Of a stretch of DNA of 64,000 bases, positions 41,204 to 48,704 are shown piece after piece (the first letter of the stretch is position 1; each line of letters opens with the position of its first letter). The notes below the pieces were generated by a model. It worked only from the letters and a program-made list of their open reading frames with translations. It did not search any database and had not been told where the DNA came from. Position numbers and translations under genes: made by a program. Source of the stretch: Bradyrhizobium sp. 149 (GTDB taxonomy: Bacteria; Pseudomonadota; Alphaproteobacteria; Rhizobiales; Xanthobacteraceae); NCBI RefSeq assembly GCF_023073915.1, contig NZ_JADPKK010000022.1:496001-560000 (forward strand). Reading direction: 5' to 3'.

Positions 41204-41590
41204 TTACGTCTTGGCTTCACCGGCTCCCGACAGGGCCGTCTCGAGACATTCGATCAGAGCGGGCGTCGAAAACGGCTTCGCGAGAAAGCAGATGGCGCCA
41301 GCTTTCAGCGCGCGGTCGCGAACGGCATCGTCGGGAAATGCCGTCACGAAGATGAATGGTGTGTGGTGACCAAGGCCGCGCATATGCATCAAGAGATCAA
41401 CGCCGCCCATGACCGACATCTGCACATCCGCGATCACGCAGGACGTCGTCTTCAGTTCTGCCGACTGGAGAAATTCGCGAGCGGAGCCAAAGATGCAGAC
41501 CGCGTATCCCCGCGACGTCAGGAGATTATTCGTCGCAAGGCGGACCGATGGATCATCGTCAATCACGGAAATGACCGAGGGGGCTGACAA
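41204..41590 (-). CDS. Single-domain response regulator (FixJ-type receiver)
   Basis: A 128-residue CheY-like protein made only of a receiver domain. The acidic pocket is VIDDDPS (about 9-15), the phospho-acceptor Asp55 (VIADVQM), then a Thr in VTAFPD and the Lys of FLAKPFS. The TTG at 41590 is preferred because AGGAG lies nine bases upstream; an ATG at 41671 would add an unconserved tail. It is third in a kinase-regulator-receiver set, 83 bp after the FixJ-like gene, and may act as a phosphate sink or tuning partner. Confidence 0.9.
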   Translation of the reverse strand: MSAPSVISVIDDDPSVRLATNNLLTSRGYAVCIFGSAREFLQSAELKTTSCVIADVQMSVMGGVDLLMHMRGLGHHTPFIFVTAFPDDAVRDRALKAGAICFLAKPFSTPALIECLETALSGAGEAKT

Positions 41591-41673
41591 GATGTTCGCT
41601 CCTGATCGGGGAGCCGCCGTCGTGGTGCAGCCCACCCGAAAATGGGCCCTCGGAGCGAGCTTGAAAAGCATAC

Positions 41674-42345
41674 TTAGGTTTGCACGTTTCCCCCTGGCCG
41701 TGGGATTCCGAGCGCCTCGGTCATTCTGACGAGATCGGCCAATGACTTGGCGCCCATTTTCCGCATGATCTGTCCGCGATAGATCTTGACGGTAATCTCA
41801 GCCAGTCCAAGCTCGGCGGCGACTTGCTTGTTCATCAGGCCGGACGCAACCAGGGCGAGGATGTCACGCTGGCGCGCGGTCAGACCCTCGAAACGGGACC
41901 GCACTCCTGCGACCGACTTCTCGGCATTGCGCCGCCTGCGATCCCGATCGATGGCCGCCTGAACCGCATCCAGCATGTCCTGGTCGCGCACCGGCTTGGT
42001 CAGAAAATCGATGGCGCCGCTCTTCATGGCCCTGACGGTCATGGGAATATCGCCGTGACCGGTGATGAAGATAATGGGCGTGCGAATGTTGGCCTTGGCG
42101 AGGTCCGTCTGGAGGTCGAAGCCGCTCGAGCCCGGCAGCCGGATGTCGAGTACAAGGCAACTGGGGACCACCGGCGGCTTGGCTTCCATGACCTCCGCCG
42201 CTGAGCCGAACGCCTCGACCCTGAGGCCGACCGATTGAAAAAGATTGGTGAGCGCACGCCGCATCGACGGATCGTCATCGACGATCAGGACGATCGGATC
42301 GTCGGCACTCGCCTGTGCCTGCATCGGCTTGGCGTGGTCCGTCAC
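41674..42345 (-). CDS. FixJ-family response regulator
   Basis: A 223-residue regulator with a receiver (phospho-acceptor Asp67 in [13 protein letters not shown]; Lys in [12 protein letters not shown]) and a C-terminal LuxR-type helix-turn-helix (about 155-215; [15 protein letters not shown], then [16 protein letters not shown]). This is the FixJ/NodW class of transcription factor. Its GTG start overlaps the kinase stop by four bases (GTGA), so the two are coupled. Targets are unknown, and I cannot say it is the nitrogen-fixation FixJ; a NodW/NwsB-like or orphan role is equally possible. Confidence 0.93.
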
Positions 42346-44777
42346 GACGTGTCCTTGTGTGGGAAGGGCAGGGCAATCTGGAACGTTGCGCCGCTGCCCT
42401 CATTGGGAAGGGCCGAAAGCCGGCCCGCGTGAGCCTCGATGATCGATCGGCAGATCGATAGTCCCATGCCTAGGCCGCTCGATTTTGTGGTGAAGAACGG
42501 CGTGAAGATGCGGTCTGTTATCTCGCCGCCAAGGCCGACACCGCGATCACTCACGGTGAGGAGCAGGTGGCGATCGCCGTCCTCGCCAGCCTGACTGGAG
42601 CGGATCGCCAGCTCGCGCGGACGGTCGACATTGGCTTGCATGGCTTCGATCCCGTTCACGACAAGGTTGATCAGCACCTGCTGGAGCTGGATCCGATCGC
42701 CGCAAATCGTGGGCAGGCCGGACGACAACTCCATTCGCACCGACACGGCATGGGTAGCGAGCTCGCGCCGAACGAGGGCTATCACCTCCCTGACAACCTG
42801 ATTGATGTCGAGCGGAACCATCTCGATCTCGGTCTTCTTCGCAAGCGCCCGAATCCGGCGGATCACCTCGCTAGCCCGATTGGCGTCCTCGACGATCCAT
42901 TCCACGGAACGTCGCGCAGCATCCAGATTGGCCGGGTCGCGACCGAGCCAGCTGATACAGGCGTCGGCATTGGAAATCACGGCGGCAAGAGGCTGGTTGA
43001 TTTCGTGGGCTATCGAGGCGGTGAGTTCGCCGAGCGTCGTGACGCGCGTGACATGGGCGAGCTCGGCTTGCGCTTTGCGTAGCGCTTCTTCAGCCTGCTC
43101 GGCGCGGATCGCCGCCGTCACATCGCTGCTGACGCCCCGATATCCGAGAAAATGGCCGTCGGCATCATGCAAGGGCTTGCCGCTGGTGCGCACGTAAATT
43201 GGCGATCCGTTGCGATCTCTGCCGCGGTAAACCAGATCGCGGAATGGGAGGTGGGCGTCGAGCGCCGCGCGATGCTGCTCCCACTTCCCCGGCTCGAGCT
43301 CGGCGTCCGGCGGAATGTCCCAACGGCTCAGGCCGATCAAGCCCGTCGGCGCAGCTCTGGCCGCATCGGCGTGCTCCGATATCTGCGTGATACGGTGATC
43401 CGGACCGGTCTCCCAAAACCAGTCGGATGCCGTTTCAGCATAGTCCCGGAACCGCTGCTCGGATGTCTTGAGTTCATCAAATGCCCTTTGCAGCGCTTCT
43501 TTTGCCGCGATCTGCTCGGTGACATCCACGTGGGTACCGATGATCTCCGTCACTTCGCCGTCGCTACTGACGATGGGATGTCCCTCGGTATGGACTCGTC
43601 GTATCGAGCCGTCCGGGCGCGCAATGCGAAAGTCAAGTTCGAAGGGTTCCTTTCGCCGGACGGCCTGACGTTCCACCTCGACGATCCGTTGGAAATCCTC
43701 CGGAAGGACGCGTTGCTGGAAAGCCCACGCCGGTAGTTCAATCTGGCCCGGGTCAAATCCGAACAGGCGGTAGAGTTCAGCCGATCGGTAGGCAAACTCC
43801 TGACGACGCACATCCCAGGCCCAGCTGCTTGTATGGCTGAGCCGCTGTGCCTCGGCCAAATAGGCCTCGCTGCGGCGCAGCCTCTGTTCTGCCTCCTTTG
43901 CAACGGTGACATCGGTGACAGCCCCGACAAATTCGATGAGCCCGGATCCATGTCTCACCGCACGTGCTACGGAATGGAGATATTTGACCGATCCGTCAGG
44001 CATCAGCAGGCGATATTCATGGTCGAAATCCGCTGCTCGGCTGGCCGCTCGATCGAGGGTCTTGCTGACCGCATCGCGATCTTCCGGATGGATGCGCTGG
44101 AGAACAAAATCCAAGGTCGGCTTCACCGTCAGGTCGCATTGGAAGATGCGAAAGGTTTCCCTTGACCAGACGATCGCGCCTGTTGCCATGTTCAGGCCGA
44201 AGCTGCCGGTGCGGCTCAGTTCCTGGGCCTCGGCGAGGTAGGCCTCGCTTTGGCGTAGCGCATCCTCCGCCTCCTTGCGCTGGGTAATGTTTTCGCAGGC
44301 GACCAGCACGATCGGCGCGCCGTCGCCGCGCAGCATCGCCTTGGCGTTTTCACGGACCCAAAGCACCGATCCGTCCTTCCGGAACTTGCGAATCTCCCAA
44401 GTATGCGACTGGTGCAGGGTTTCCAGCGACAATGCTACGCATCGGCGAACAAAGTCGTGGTCCTCCTCGAAGAAGACGTTGAGCACGGATTGGCCAATCA
44501 GCTCGGCCGCGGTGTAGCCCAGTTGTGCGGCGCCGAATGTATTGACGTTGAGCACTGTTCCGGCCCGATCGACCATGAAGTACATGACCGGATTGTGCTC
44601 AAACACCTCGCGCCACTGCTTCACGGCGTCGCGTAGATCGAGGACGTCTTGCCGCAAGTCATCTCCGACAGCAGGCCTGTCCTTCTCGCCATTGCCGAAA
44701 GATCGAAGCGCCGCGAGGCCGCCGTGCAGCAATTGTGCGGCCGAATTCCCAAATTTCGCGATTTGGCCAGGCATCAT
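42342..44777 (-). CDS. Multi-PAS FixL-type sensor histidine kinase
   Basis: A soluble kinase of about 811 residues with four PAS/PAC modules in tandem. The last one ends [20 protein letters not shown]. It is followed by the FixL-class H-box [20 protein letters not shown] and an ATPase domain with N-box [13 protein letters not shown]1 SDRGVGLGG and G2 GLGMGLS. There are no TM helices, so it senses a cytoplasmic cue. A heme-binding PAS could not be recognised with confidence. The true start is uncertain: I placed it at the ATG at 44777 because the 65 codons upstream look like non-coding sequence; the frame is open to 44972. Confidence 0.88.
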
Positions 44778-45235
44778 CGCAGGCGTCCCGGCTCGCTGGG
44801 GCCGCAGCAAGTAGAGCACTTTGCAACAAGGGGAGCAATTCCCTCCGACCGAGTTAGAACTTCGCGCCGAAATTCGCGGTGACCGTGCGGCCTGCCGGCC
44901 TTGCGCCGTCTCGTTGCGAAGGTGCGGCGGGTCCGAAAAACTACGGAACAAACTTACGTATAGCTCGCGCATCCCAAGTCATAGCGCACATTTACCTCCG
45001 TACAATTGAGCGGTCCGTTGCATGCGGATTAGTCTCACGACCAATCGAGAGGACGCGATGTGCAAGACACAAGCCGGCAATTAGCTCGATGTGCTGCTTA
45101 CAGCTCTGCGTCCGTTGCCCGACTTGGCGCATGAATGGCTGATCACGATTAATAGGCTGCATTTCACGAACGGAGCGTGGATGGCTCTGCGTCAGCGTAC
45201 GAGCGAATCCACGGCCATGAAGCCGGGAGAGTATG
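44778..45235. other. Divergent intergenic region upstream of the PAS kinase and the small Cys gene
   Basis: About 460 bp with no convincing gene. It would hold the promoter of the kinase set and that of the small Cys-rich genes. A 23-codon frame at 45181-45252 has GGAGCG upstream but overlaps the next gene in another frame. Confidence 0.35.
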
Positions 45236-45424
45236 ATGTGCGATACGCCTGAACACTCCGAGCGCGGTCCTGCTGTAAAAGGTTGCGCTGTTTGTAGCGG
45301 CAAGTTTGGCCTGATCCGATATTATTCCTGGCGAACGCCGCTGTGCTCCAGAAAATGTCTCGATCGCTTCAGGGCGCGTCGCGAGCGCGACCGCCGATGG
45401 TTGTTCCGATTTCAGGCGGCGTGA
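45236..45424 (+). CDS. Tiny Cys-pair protein, probable zinc ribbon
   Basis: A 62-residue protein with GCAVCSGKFG, then TPLCSRKCLDRFRARRER: a CxxC and a CxxxC pair likely to hold one zinc, with an Arg-rich end. The start is one of two adjacent ATGs (45233 or 45236) behind GGGAGAG. Family unknown to me; similar tiny proteins are common in Bradyrhizobium. It is the first of four short genes in a row. Confidence 0.6.
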   Translation: MCDTPEHSERGPAVKGCAVCSGKFGLIRYYSWRTPLCSRKCLDRFRARRERDRRWLFRFQAA

Positions 45425-45474
45425 GGATTAGCCCTTCGATCCGCTCCATCCGCCAATTCTGAACAGGAGGCTGC

Positions 45475-45873
45475 GTGCTGAACCGTGCTTGCAAGCTCCT
45501 CTGGATGATCGCGCTGCCGCTTCCGTTGATAACGGGAGTGGAGGCCGACGAGGTTGGACAGGATGGCGCACATCGTCATCATCCGCTCCAGGATCAGCTC
45601 CTGCACGAAAAGTTCTATTCCAGCTGGCATATGCCCGACAATCCGGTGCTCAGCTGCTGCAACAATGCGGATTGCTATCCGACCGAGGTGCGATACGTCG
45701 ACGGCAGGGTCTACGCGCGACGCCGGGAAGACGGGAAATACATCCTGATCCCGTCCCAGAAGGTCGAGCGTAACAGAGACAATCCCGACGGCCGCAACCA
45801 TCTTTGCGCGCCGCCGCCGTCCGCCTCTCTGGTCGACACCGTCTACTGCTTCGCGCTGGGAGGTGCCACGTGA
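45475..45873 (+). CDS. Exported Cys-rich hypothetical protein
   Basis: A 132-residue protein with an N-terminal signal (MLNRACKLLWMIALPLPLITGVEA) followed by a His-rich start, then VLSCCNNADCYPTEVRYVDGR and an NHLCAPPP segment. Five or more cysteines in the mature part suggest disulfides or metal binding in the periplasm. I recognise the CCNNADC pattern in rhizobial hypothetical proteins but no function. The GTG at 45475 has AGGAGG four bases upstream, an excellent ribosome-binding site. Confidence 0.75.
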   Translation: MLNRACKLLWMIALPLPLITGVEADEVGQDGAHRHHPLQDQLLHEKFYSSWHMPDNPVLSCCNNADCYPTEVRYVDGRVYARRREDGKYILIPSQKVERNRDNPDGRNHLCAPPPSASLVDTVYCFALGGAT

Positions 45874-46058
45874 GATTCATATTGGTGAACGACAGAACCC
45901 CTCTCCGCAAGACGTTCTGTCTGTGGTGCTGCGAGCAGATCAGCACTGGCTATCTGCGCGACGCCAGCACGCAACTGCCTTACTGCGACTACGAGTGCTA
46001 CGCGCTTCATGGCGAAGCTGCGCCGTTGATCGAGGGCCGTACGCGAGCGGCGTCCTGA
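45870..46058 (+). CDS. Tiny Cys-pair protein, paralogue 1
   Basis: A 62-residue protein: VRFILVNDRTPLRKTFCLWCCEQ, then SYLRD-like GYLRDASTQLPYCDYECYALHG. The CxxC and CxxxC pairs suggest a treble-clef or zinc-ribbon fold. The GTG start overlaps the previous stop (GTGA), so it is coupled to it. It resembles the next gene closely enough to be a tandem duplicate. Confidence 0.68.
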   Translation: MRFILVNDRTPLRKTFCLWCCEQISTGYLRDASTQLPYCDYECYALHGEAAPLIEGRTRAAS

Positions 46059-46115
46059 GCGGACACATGCTCGAGACGATCGGCAGTGCGCCTGACGGCA
46101 GGAGAGGACACGACC

Positions 46116-46424
46116 TTGAGATTCATGCTCATCAATCATGGACGACCCAGCCATGGCGCCACCTGCAGCGCGTGCGCCCAGCCATTGGGCGCGAGTTACG
46201 TCCGGCATGTGTCTACGCGACGGCGTTATTGCGATACGGATTGCTACCGTCGCCATCAAATATCGGCCATGGGAATGCTCTGGCCTTACCACAGTTCGCT
46301 CGAGACGATCACGGCGCTGGCGGCCATTTCGAGCTGGAGCTGGATGATGCAGATGAGCGCGCTCTCGCGCTTGCTGACCGAGCCATATCTGCGCGCACAG
46401 CCTTCTGACAACGGAAGGCGGTGA
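46116..46424 (+). CDS. Tiny Cys-pair protein, paralogue 2 with C-terminal extension
   Basis: A 102-residue protein whose first half (LRFMLINHGRPSHGATCSACAQ, then SYVRHVSTRRRYCDTDCY) aligns by eye with paralogue 1. The extension includes a hydrophobic stretch LAAISSWSWMMQMS that could touch the membrane. The TTG at 46116 begins at the same point as paralogue 1 and has GGAGAGG upstream; an ATG at 46086 would add ten residues. Function unknown. Confidence 0.66.
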   Translation: MRFMLINHGRPSHGATCSACAQPLGASYVRHVSTRRRYCDTDCYRRHQISAMGMLWPYHSSLETITALAAISSWSWMMQMSALSRLLTEPYLRAQPSDNGRR

Positions 46425-46514
46425 TGGCCAGCCGAACAATGCTGGCCGCGCAGAGAAGCCGGCCGCAGTTACTGCATCAAGCCTCGCGCCGCGTCCAGCC
46501 CCGGCGTTGCGAGG

Positions 46515-48704
46515 CTAGGGCGCAGGGGCTGCGGCCGATGCCGTAGGTGCCGCGCTGACTTCATGCGTCGTGACACGCTGCTCGGACTTCGCCGTGGCGA
46601 GGCCGCTGCCCTCGAACCGGGTGCGGTAGACCAGCACGTTCTCGATCACGCGCTGGACGTAGTTGCGTGTCTCCGACAGCGGGATGCGCTCGACCCAGTC
46701 GACCGGATCGACCTTGGGGTCCCTGGGGTCGCCGCGCGCCTGCACCCATTCGCGCACGCGGCCACGGCCGGCATTGTAGCCGGCGAAGGTCATGATCTGG
46801 TTGCCGCGATATTCCGAAAGAAGCGCGCTGAGTTCGGCCGCGCCCATCTGGGTGTTGTAGACGGGATCGGAGACCATCTTATCCCAATCGTAGGTCAGGC
46901 CGAAGCGCTTTGCGGTGTCGCGGCCTGCTTCCGGCGTCACCTGCATCAGCCCGACTGCGTTGGCGGCCGATTTGTCGCGCTGATCGAACGAGCTTTCGGT
47001 GCGTGCCACCGAATAGATCACGCTGGTCTCGATCGCGGGCGCGACCTGCTTATGCTCGGGAATGCCGATGGTCGGGAAGGCGTAATGATCGAGCGCGAGC
47101 CCGCGCGCCAGCGCCGACTTGCCGACCTCCAGCATCACGCGTGCATCGTTGCGCCGGCCGGCGAGCTCGCCGAGCGCCTCGAGCGCCGCCACGTCGGTAC
47201 TCTCCTTGGCGAAATCCTCGGCGTAGTAAAACACCATGTCGCGCTCACCGACGCCGTAGAGCATGTCGGCGGCGCGCACGCGCTCGTCCGCGGGGCGCGT
47301 GTCGGCTGCTGCCAGCACGGGCGAGGGCGCGCGCAGCTCGATCCGGTCCATGCCGAGCCTGGCGCGGGCGAGCTGGCCGTAATAGGCGGTCGGATAGCGC
47401 GCCGCTGCCTGATAGCTCAGGCGCGCGTCGGCCGTCGCGTTCATCGCCTCGGCCGCGCGGCCGCGCCAGTAATGCGCGCGCGACAGCGCGATCGGATTGG
47501 CCGAGCCTTCGTCGATCGCGGCGAAATGCATCATCGCCGCCTTGGGATCGTCGAGATAGCGCAGCGCGATCCAGCCGCACATGAAGTGATAGTCGACGCG
47601 GTAGACTTCCATCGCGGGCACGGCCGCCGAGCGCACCACGTCATAGGCGGTTTTGAACTTGCCCTGGTCGAGCAGCTTTCGCGCGAGCAGGCGGCGCTCG
47701 CGCCACCAGGCGTCGGTGTCTTGCGCCGCCATCGTATCGGGCGCGGCGGCCAGGATCACCTCGGCCGCGTCGTCGATGCGGTCATTCTGGAGATGCCATT
47801 GCGCGCGGCACAGGACATAGCCGAGGTCACGGCGCGCATCGGCCGAGACGTCCTCGAGGTAGTCCTTGGCCTTGTTGGCCTTGCCAGTGACGGCGGCGCA
47901 GGCCTTGACGATTGCGAGCGCATCCTCGCCTAGCCGCTTGGCGGCGCGTCGCGCGCCGGCGTAGTCCTTGGCGCCGAGGCGCTTGTCCATGCGGGCGCGA
48001 TGATCCTCGGCCCTCAGGAGATCGCGAAACGCTTCGTAGGACTCTTCCTCGCTGCGCTCGGACAATTCATCCGTGCGCCAGGCCTCGCGCACCAGACGTG
48101 CGGCCCTGTCGCTGTCGCCCTCCGTCAGCAGCACGCGAGCGAGCGCGAACTTGCCCTTGGCGCTGGTCGGCCGGTCCATCGTGAATTTGTGCACGGTCGC
48201 CGCGTCGGCCTTCTCCTGCCACAGCCGCGCCTCGGCACGGCGGCGGAGCAGGGCGCTGCTCGGCCAGTCTGGATTGGCGGCGAGGAAGGCGGCGTAGCGC
48301 TTGAAATTCGCCGTGCTCTCGGAATGGCGCAGCATGAACCAGTCGGCGAGTTTCTGTCCGGCAGGGTCGGCAATGCGGTCGCGCGCCGCGCTCGCATCTT
48401 CGGTCTTGCCCTTCCGGGCGAGATCAATGGCGTCCTTCAGCGCGGCGAGATCGCCGCTCGGCGGCGGGGCTGCCGGCTTGTCCGGGGGCGCGTCGTCCGG
48501 CTTCTTCGACTTGCGCTTGGCCTCGGCATGCTTGCCGTGGCGCGCCTTGCCGGCGGAGGCATGGCGCTGCTTGCCGGTTTTCGCCTCATGCGTCTTCTTC
48601 GGCGCGGACGATTTGTGACTGCTTTTCGCTGCCAGCTCATTAGGGATGAAGGCCAAAGCGGCCACGGCAACGACACACGCGAGCGAGCGTAGGCACTGGT
48701 TCAT
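46515..48704 (-). CDS. Soluble lytic murein transglycosylase (Slt-type)
   Basis: Periplasmic enzyme that cleaves the peptidoglycan glycan strand between MurNAc and GlcNAc, 729 residues. A signal peptide (MNQCLRSLACVVAVAALAF) is followed by a basic Lys/Ala/Pro-rich segment (about 27-75), a long alpha-helical superhelical U-domain (about 80-520) and the C-terminal SLT domain. The SLT domain carries the catalytic Glu in ARTESSFDQRDKSAANAVGL, plus GLMQVTPEAG and ITFAGYNAGRGRV-like AGYNAG. The ATG at 48704 is supported by GGGGGGA; the frame is open further up, but only there does a signal peptide begin. Confidence 0.93.
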   Translation of the reverse strand: MNQCLRSLACVVAVAALAFIPNELAAKSSHKSSAPKKTHEAKTGKQRHASAGKARHGKHAEAKRKSKKPDDAPPDKPAAPPPSGDLAALKDAIDLARKGKTEDASAARDRIADPAGQKLADWFMLRHSESTANFKRYAAFLAANPDWPSSALLRRRAEARLWQEKADAATVHKFTMDRPTSAKGKFALARVLLTEGDSDRAARLVREAWRTDELSERSEEESYEAFRDLLRAEDHRARMDKRLGAKDYAGARRAAKRLGEDALAIVKACAAVTGKANKAKDYLEDVSADARRDLGYVLCRAQWHLQNDRIDDAAEVILAAAPDTMAAQDTDAWWRERRLLARKLLDQGKFKTAYDVVRSAAVPAMEVYRVDYHFMCGWIALRYLDDPKAAMMHFAAIDEGSANPIALSRAHYWRGRAAEAMNATADARLSYQAAARYPTAYYGQLARARLGMDRIELRAPSPVLAAADTRPADERVRAADMLYGVGERDMVFYYAEDFAKESTDVAALEALGELAGRRNDARVMLEVGKSALARGLALDHYAFPTIGIPEHKQVAPAIETSVIYSVARTESSFDQRDKSAANAVGLMQVTPEAGRDTAKRFGLTYDWDKMVSDPVYNTQMGAAELSALLSEYRGNQIMTFAGYNAGRGRVREWVQARGDPRDPKVDPVDWVERIPLSETRNYVQRVIENVLVYRTRFEGSGLATAKSEQRVTTHEVSAAPTASAAAPAP

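Follow-up and report, generated by a model that had tools for sequence, protein, structure and literature searches.

NodV is a large sensor kinase. In the accessible portions of PMC5793154 and PMC9927474, NodVW and NwsAB are presented as two-component regulators beside NodD. For FixJ, the sites obtained by SELEX are given as GTAMGTAG and GTAGTTTCCC in the available part of PMC4999443. Furthermore, StyR-P dimers are described, in the accessible section of PMC2442086, as binding several sites, two of them cooperatively and one at about -40 from the start. Concerning proteins with an NYN domain, the accessible literature text calls one from Bradyrhizobium poorly characterised. Blr5067, a LabA-like NYN protein that we liken by family to a target gene discussed below, was detected in the proteome of B. 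diazoefficiens (PMC4287336), and the accessible text of that paper gives no tie of Blr5067 to the operon or to the element described here.

Here, we analysed a window, i.e. the whole 64-kb stretch of DNA taken from the 6.74-Mb genome of Bradyrhizobium sp. 149, in which four small genes (g1 to g4) lie next to genes for a histidine kinase (HK), a response regulator (RR) and a stand-alone receiver (REC). The four genes probably form an operon controlled by the neighbouring two-component system, from which it diverges, within a regulon that extends across the genus and most likely serves the response to stress perceived in the cytosol. This reading is built on the coding status of the genes, their conservation, their co-divergence with HK and RR, and the genomic distribution of an element found upstream of them. 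The main addition of our analysis is this putative control element in the gap between HK and g1, the cluster already reported by the first-pass annotation being confirmed and extended; the stand-alone receiver gene and the conservation of an element in the gap are both new relative to that annotation. Titles and abstract openings of open-licence PMC papers, searched for small, zinc-finger and FixJ proteins, NYN and NodVW/NwsB of Bradyrhizobium, contained nothing on such a system.

The four small genes and their products

All four genes are on the + strand. The first, g1 (45236..45424), encodes 62 aa with a CxxC-x16-CxxxC arrangement, a treble-clef-type cysteine spacing, and was delimited from its ORF, a conserved start and ribosome-binding site (RBS), dN/dS and alignment. 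Many relatives have ATC, ATA, ATT, ACG or ACA in place of the in-frame ATG just before it (45233), which makes a start at the second ATG more likely. The next gene, g2 (45475..45873; ORF, alignment and model), specifies a putative exported Cys-rich protein of 132 aa without clear fold match. It is followed by g3 (45870..46058; ORF and overlap in relatives), which encodes a CxxC/CxxxC protein of 62 aa from a GTG start located within the g2 stop (GTGA), and by its paralogue g4 (46116..46424; ORF, alignment and model), encoding 102 aa from a TTG start and ending in a helical extension.

These are real genes under purifying selection. Median dN/dS reaches 0.11 for g1, 0.17 for g2, 0.31 for g3 and 0.46 for g4 (55, 55, 43 and 48 relatives, respectively, with 38, 55, 41 and 44 pairs at dS 0.05-1.5). 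Moreover, 51 of 52 loci have a g2-g3 overlap of exactly 4 nt, an RBS-like sequence stands upstream of each gene, and g4 starts with ATG in 28, TTG in 25 and GTG in two of 55 loci. Among 195 genomes of the genus, matches at E<=0.001 were found in 118 for g1, 106 for g3 and 98 for g2, the last count including weak, partial or stop-containing matches. In a set of 149 genomes drawn from the family of the host, ten have g3 matches, five of them belonging to the same genus. The g1 gene is often multi-copy, with up to ten matches in one genome. Hence, the four tiny Cys-pair genes of the first-pass annotation, together with their start-stop overlap, the ribosome-binding-site-like sequences before them, the exported Cys-rich nature predicted for the second product and the tandem duplication that gave g3 and the TTG-starting g4, were all upheld.

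None of the four products scores above the cut-off of a Pfam or NCBIfam model, and the best PHROGs row (E 0.0084) is unconvincing. In addition, g4 is absent or decayed in some loci and g2 is frameshifted in a few. Such features would suit ordinary functionless small ORFs, retained beside a kinase by chance, an explanation that is hardly credible because it is contradicted by the dN/dS values, the conserved overlap, the promoter element and the HK/RR partner kept in other surroundings. As a separate observation, g2 is split or truncated next to an intact g1 in three loci (L140, L141, which is the place of L229, and L142), and g3 and g4 are without match in L142.

The products of g3 and g4 are 31% identical. 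In 32 sequences, F3, N7, P11, C17, Y28, R30, Y38, C39, C43 and Y44 are invariant and C20 is nearly so. The two paralogues have the pattern MRF-LVN...CxxC...YC...CY in common. The spacing C-x2-C-x(16-18)-C-x3-C is found in g1, g3 and g4. The model of g4 (residues 1-97, pLDDT 87.4) has short strands around the four cysteines, then a long helix. The top fold rows obtained with its core are mostly treble-clef-type small zinc domains (TFIIH p44, C1, TRASH, eL24), all of them weak matches (E 0.28 or worse, Z <=5.2). The g3/g4 sequence profile gave eL24 as its best PDB row (E 0.4). Among Pfam zinc families (best rows DUF2116, LIM and DUF3330), scores stay below cut-off for g1 (10 versus 26.8 bits) and g4 (13.2 versus 22.9 and 13 versus 25 bits), and g3 has no row. 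We read g1, g3 and g4 as treble-clef-like, the model covering g4 alone. Given the four-Cys arrangement and this treble-clef-like model, binding of zinc by the four-Cys proteins is plausible.

The g2 product begins with a signal-peptide-like stretch (by eye), its hydropathy peaking at 1.45 over residues 5-24. An alignment of 35 sequences shows conserved residues that include Cys and His: C61, C62, C111 and C125 are invariant and C67 is nearly invariant. The confident core of its model starts from about residue 40 (pLDDT 82-96 for residues 41-130). Searches of the PDB with this fold (Foldseek, VIA-align) gave nothing convincing, the best rows being cold-shock/OB-like (Z 4.2), and its sequence profile reached at best E 0.0057 in the PDB with a designed beta-trefoil, no stretch passing alone.

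In line with the redox- or metal-linked regulon put forward as possible at first pass, the Cys-pair proteins could be viewed as a metal (Zn/Cu) or redox response set, TRASH- or metallochaperone-like, with a kinase sensing metal or redox state. The cysteine spacing, the presence of a TRASH domain (2das, Z 3.7) among the mostly treble-clef-type zinc rows of the g4 core and the conserved Cys and His of a putatively exported g2 point in this direction. However, zinc would be equally likely to be structural, and no metal transporter or oxidase was recognised by eye near the elements, and we hold this explanation to be unlikely.

The kinase locus and its company

From a common gap, HK, RR and REC run leftward and g1-g4 rightward. 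HK (42342..44972, -) was assigned as a soluble multi-PAS histidine kinase from its PAS, HisKA and HATPase_c matches; it lacks any 19-residue stretch above 1.2 on the Kyte-Doolittle scale, which fits the soluble multi-PAS kinase proposed at first pass. Its annotated start, 44972, falls inside the control element, and in relatives the homologous part often starts at residue 8-48; the true start is probably downstream of 44972. RR (41674..42345, -; Pfam and PDB profile) is a FixJ/StyR-type regulator, its receiver (PF00072, 1e-27) and GerE HTH (PF00196, 3e-20) placing it in the NarL/FixJ type. Its closest solved structure is 1yio (E 5.5e-57), which we take to be StyR, and FixJ comes next. The first-pass label "FixLJ-like" should be used cautiously, HK scoring 243.6 bits against the 850 required by NF041777 (FixL) and RR 196.8 against the 255 of NF006900 (FixJ), with 1yio as nearest solved relative of RR.

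REC (41204..41671, -), which follows RR, was recognised by a receiver-domain match as a stand-alone receiver of 155 aa containing five Cys. FixT, a single-domain receiver that inhibits FixL, has a four-Cys motif binding Fe-S. A weak receiver match also follows RR in 19 of 20 loci (L105-L124). On a plasmid of a peanut Bradyrhizobium (L371), for which the gene table is incomplete, an RR and receiver pair was seen without annotated HK nearby.

The 3' side of the cluster is occupied by a lytic transglycosylase gene (SLT) and a HAMP-cyclase gene (GC). Named genomes were scanned with a profile of g2, which yielded 77 loci. HK and RR lie beside the cluster in 64 of them (including L225, whose HK match is partial), that is in 64 of the 68 labelled Bradyrhizobium. 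In one further locus (L230), the contig is short and has HK without RR. The 12 others have neither gene: five are Afipia loci, three are MAG contigs, two are second copies and two are short contigs from a single strain. Some g2 relatives are on MAG contigs labelled Acidobacteriaceae, Kaiserbacteria and Parcubacteria (L230, L231 and L240), for which binning errors seem likely.

The HK/RR partner is kept without the SLT and cyclase neighbours in seven loci (L222-L228) and in Bradyrhizobium sp. 132 (L168), whose RR and g1 are 100% identical to those of the window. Further loci are alike (L125, L127-L131, L139 and L144, L127 being the place of L225 and L130 that of L228), L139 and L144 being without g2. 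Moreover, pairwise protein distances among HK, RR, g1 and g2 correlate with r 0.78-0.90 (34 of 55 loci, 21 having been dropped for incomplete frames), compared with 0.19-0.38 between these proteins and SLT and 0.28-0.52 between them and GC. After removal of SLT and GC, partial r is 0.77-0.90, and none of 499 permutations was as high for any pair, a significance that is overstated since the genomes are related. Hence, the cluster appears to have evolved together with the neighbouring kinase. The first-pass annotation had named genes that are not conserved and change independently of the kinase locus as the outcome speaking against it, and we observed the opposite.

Such tight co-divergence with HK and RR could also be expected if the small proteins exerted feedback on the kinase in the way FixT does on FixL; in Caulobacter, according to the accessible text of PMC7078487, FixL is subject to feedback inhibition by a receiver protein that binds Fe-S. 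However, copies of g1 and of the element occur at places distant from HK, g2 is predicted to be exported, and we regard this role as very unlikely.

Outside the family, a plasmid of Microvirga ossetica (L372) bears a receiver gene together with a regulator that shares 67% identity with RR. A distant homologue of g2 (34%) lies 3.6 kb from them, and the ORF that comes next has CAHC and CHSLEC motifs. This is a single case of what, from homology, looks like the same gene company in another family.

The element in the gap and its putative targets

The putative control element (44942..45016, +) was delimited by alignment, profile and core pattern and is made of WWACCTNNGTA-type repeat copies. Site 1 (44948-44963, ACAAACTTACGTATAG) is one base off the WWACC consensus, a degenerate middle copy lies at about 44972-44983, and site 3 (44992-45010, TTACCTCCGTACAATTGAG) contains TACAAT. 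The outer copies are 42 bp apart, i.e. four helical turns, with the degenerate copy between them. In an alignment of the HK-g1 gap, one block is conserved across both the near clade and the far clade, whose HKs have only about 60% identity to that of the window. Relocated clusters have also retained the element, as have some of the loci with a solo g1. Within the 64 kb, only one match of the 75-bp profile exceeds 5 bits; it is located at 44942 and scores 87 bits.

The 19-bp 3' core pattern, TTACCTNNGTNCRATTGAG, has 107 matches in 58 of 98 genomes of the genus, and the reversed pattern has none in the same 98 genomes. An upstream WWACC[TC]NNGTAW copy was recognised in 88 of the 107 elements, at a spacing of 42 bp in 71, 43 bp in 14, 41 bp in one and 21 bp in two; the last two have no middle copy, which leaves the helical phase intact. 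The window's own site 1 copy (AAACTTACGTAT), 42 bp from the other copy and one base off consensus, is outside these 88. An element above 25 bits is present on the coding strand within 700 bp upstream of g1 in 60 of 65 named g1 loci, and the exact 19-mer core in 50 of 65; since pattern and profile were derived from these upstream regions (the profile from the 107 sites, i.e. 102 distinct rows, many of them from g1 loci), this presence is partly by construction. The five remaining loci score 11.6-21.7 bits, four of them with an intact site 3. The sites before NYN genes, the reversed control and the 21-bp deletions offer more independent support. The word "regulon", used at first pass, gains support from this conserved promoter element.

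The FixJ SELEX core TAMGTAG was considered as a shared operator and rejected as too rare, being found in 18 of 66 main and one of 23 other upstream regions and nowhere in the window. It is nevertheless enriched (2.2 expected in 89 regions by Markov shuffle), since some variants of site 1 (CCTACGTATAG) carry this core on their reverse strand. An Rfam scan of 44500-46600 gave no match at E<=1. The sequence strings of the element had no match in the open-licence PMC literature, supplements being outside the scope of that search, and a StyR-box string did not occur in the open-licence PMC papers listed for it.

The 107 core sites precede the main cluster (35), an NYN-domain gene of RNase type (29), a solo g1 (19), a solo g3/g4 (two) or other sequences (22, covered by an ORF scan). 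Taken together, Cys-pair genes are downstream of 56 of them. The product of the NYN gene has a clear NYN domain (PF01936, 130.5 bits for a cut-off of 24.2, E 8.6e-38), and the window genome carries a second strong element upstream of its own NYN gene, on another contig (C3). Among 157 fetched loci (77+60+20), there are four distinct places where 0.6-1.2 kb separates the NYN gene from this two-component pair or a related one: its neighbour is RR in L222, L223 (the place of L143) and L227, and a related HK in L353. L222, L223 and L227 each have just one other element, which precedes the NYN gene on its strand. An NYN-domain match was also seen about 2.3 kb downstream of an element-bearing solo g1 (L152, about 9785). 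Concerning the other sites, eight elements (L247, L248, L284, L294, L296, L309, L316 and L345) precede what seems, by eye, to be one recurrent, partly decayed locus with neither g1 nor NYN gene, and in L298 and L304 an element near-identical to that of the main cluster is followed by 700 bp without g1 match.

A blastn comparison covered ten solo g1 loci. Seven of them (L145, L146, L148 and L150-L153) have 340-740 bp in common at 82-92% identity, from about -220 (-130 in L145) to +210 or beyond, and L146 and L150 have 1.4 kb in common at 95%. L149 shows 72-78% identity over most pieces, and L147 and L154 are alike in little beyond the gene. The element itself is reduced to the end of site 3 in L145 and is degenerate in L149. 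Since the gene and its upstream stretch recur together at different places, upstream DNA and g1 seem to have moved together, and this stretch is possibly a small duplicating or mobile unit. No good element was found at the solo loci L147, L149, L154, L155, L156, L157, L162 and L163. By eye, a second small ORF follows the solo g1 in several of the seven similar loci.

Candidate regulator and likeness to described systems

A close RR (E<=1e-84) is encoded by 58 of 58 core-positive versus 12 of 40 core-negative genomes (Fisher p 2e-15), or by 58 of 58 versus 22 of 40 at E<=1e-72 (p 5.5e-9), both thresholds having been chosen after the values were seen and both p values being overstated by the relatedness of the genomes. 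At least two of the 12 core-negative genomes with RR (G165 and G194) carry the element with one changed base. This co-occurrence, the NYN gene located near RR and the receiver-GerE type of RR make it the best candidate for binding the element.

Alternatively, the element may be real and be read by another regulator or a special sigma factor, the two-component genes sharing the promoter region or being targets themselves. Binding by RR is indeed predicted from genomic data, and a sigma factor could recognise the conserved TACAAT as its -10 box. Furthermore, around other RR genes (20 loci: seven second copies, two plasmid-like RRs without HK and 11 HK-RR pairs), a loosened pattern found no element, and the profile gave one weak match (21 bits, L370). 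None of the 11 related HK-RR pairs, which come from genomes without good g2 match, has an adjoining core, which means that other regulators of the RR family could be the binder. However, the close RR of all 58 core-positive genomes, the proximity of the NYN gene to such a pair in four places (with its own element in three) and the co-divergence of HK/RR with g1/g2 go against this explanation, which we consider a possibility but a rather unlikely one.

If the cluster is the target operon of its neighbours, the cytosolic multi-PAS kinase would phosphorylate the FixJ/StyR-type regulator, REC acting as a competing or feedback receiver. RR dimers would, we infer, bind the helically phased WWACCTNNGTA repeats (21-bp steps), placed just upstream of and around the TACAAT -10-like box, and would activate g1-g4, related g1 genes elsewhere and the NYN-domain gene. 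The g1, g3 and g4 products would be small cytosolic treble-clef-like proteins, probably binding zinc, and g2 would be exported. Together, the products would most likely help the cell to cope with a stress perceived in the cytosol, perhaps by acting on RNA or ribosomes. This RNA- or ribosome-linked stress role of the small proteins is our preferred guess, drawn from the NYN partner and the zinc-finger-like core. Quite unlikely, in our opinion, is the full scheme of a genus-wide two-component stress regulon with a three-copy, 21-bp-phased operator, in which zinc-finger microproteins (partly spread as promoter-plus-gene cassettes) and an NYN ribonuclease would reshape RNA decay or ribosomes, alongside an exported Cys partner. 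With our analysis, small ORFs that lacked annotation, in a genus of major importance for nitrogen fixation, become a regulon that can be tested, its operator being defined, its target families named and a candidate proposed for its regulator. If confirmed, it would reveal a shared switch for Cys-pair proteins without curated family and for an NYN protein described, in the accessible literature, as poorly characterised.

Among described systems, FixLJ/FixT resembles this locus by its PAS kinase (the C-terminal half of HK best matches FixL-derived PDB chains), its FixJ-type regulator and its extra single-domain receiver. It differs in that HK and RR remain under the NCBIfam levels for FixL and FixJ and that the targets found here are not fixK or nif. 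The FixJ SELEX sites, as given in the accessible text, also differ from the WWACCTNNGTA repeat, although in some relatives site 1 and their TAMGTAG core overlap. StyS/StyR is close by 1yio, presumably StyR, the best solved relative of RR, but no aromatic catabolism genes were recognised at the main targets. NodVW/NwsAB are two-component systems of the same genus, likened here by description and not by sequence, whereas the locus of the window adjoins SLT and cyclase genes. TRASH/YHS, zf-HIT, eL24 and other treble-clef zinc fingers have the Cys4 spacing and the predicted strand-plus-helix core in common with the small proteins, which differ from them by matching no family model at cut-off and, for g4, by a long extra C-terminal helix. 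Finally, the likeness to NYN/LabA-like proteins (PF01936) comes from the second major putative target gene of the element.
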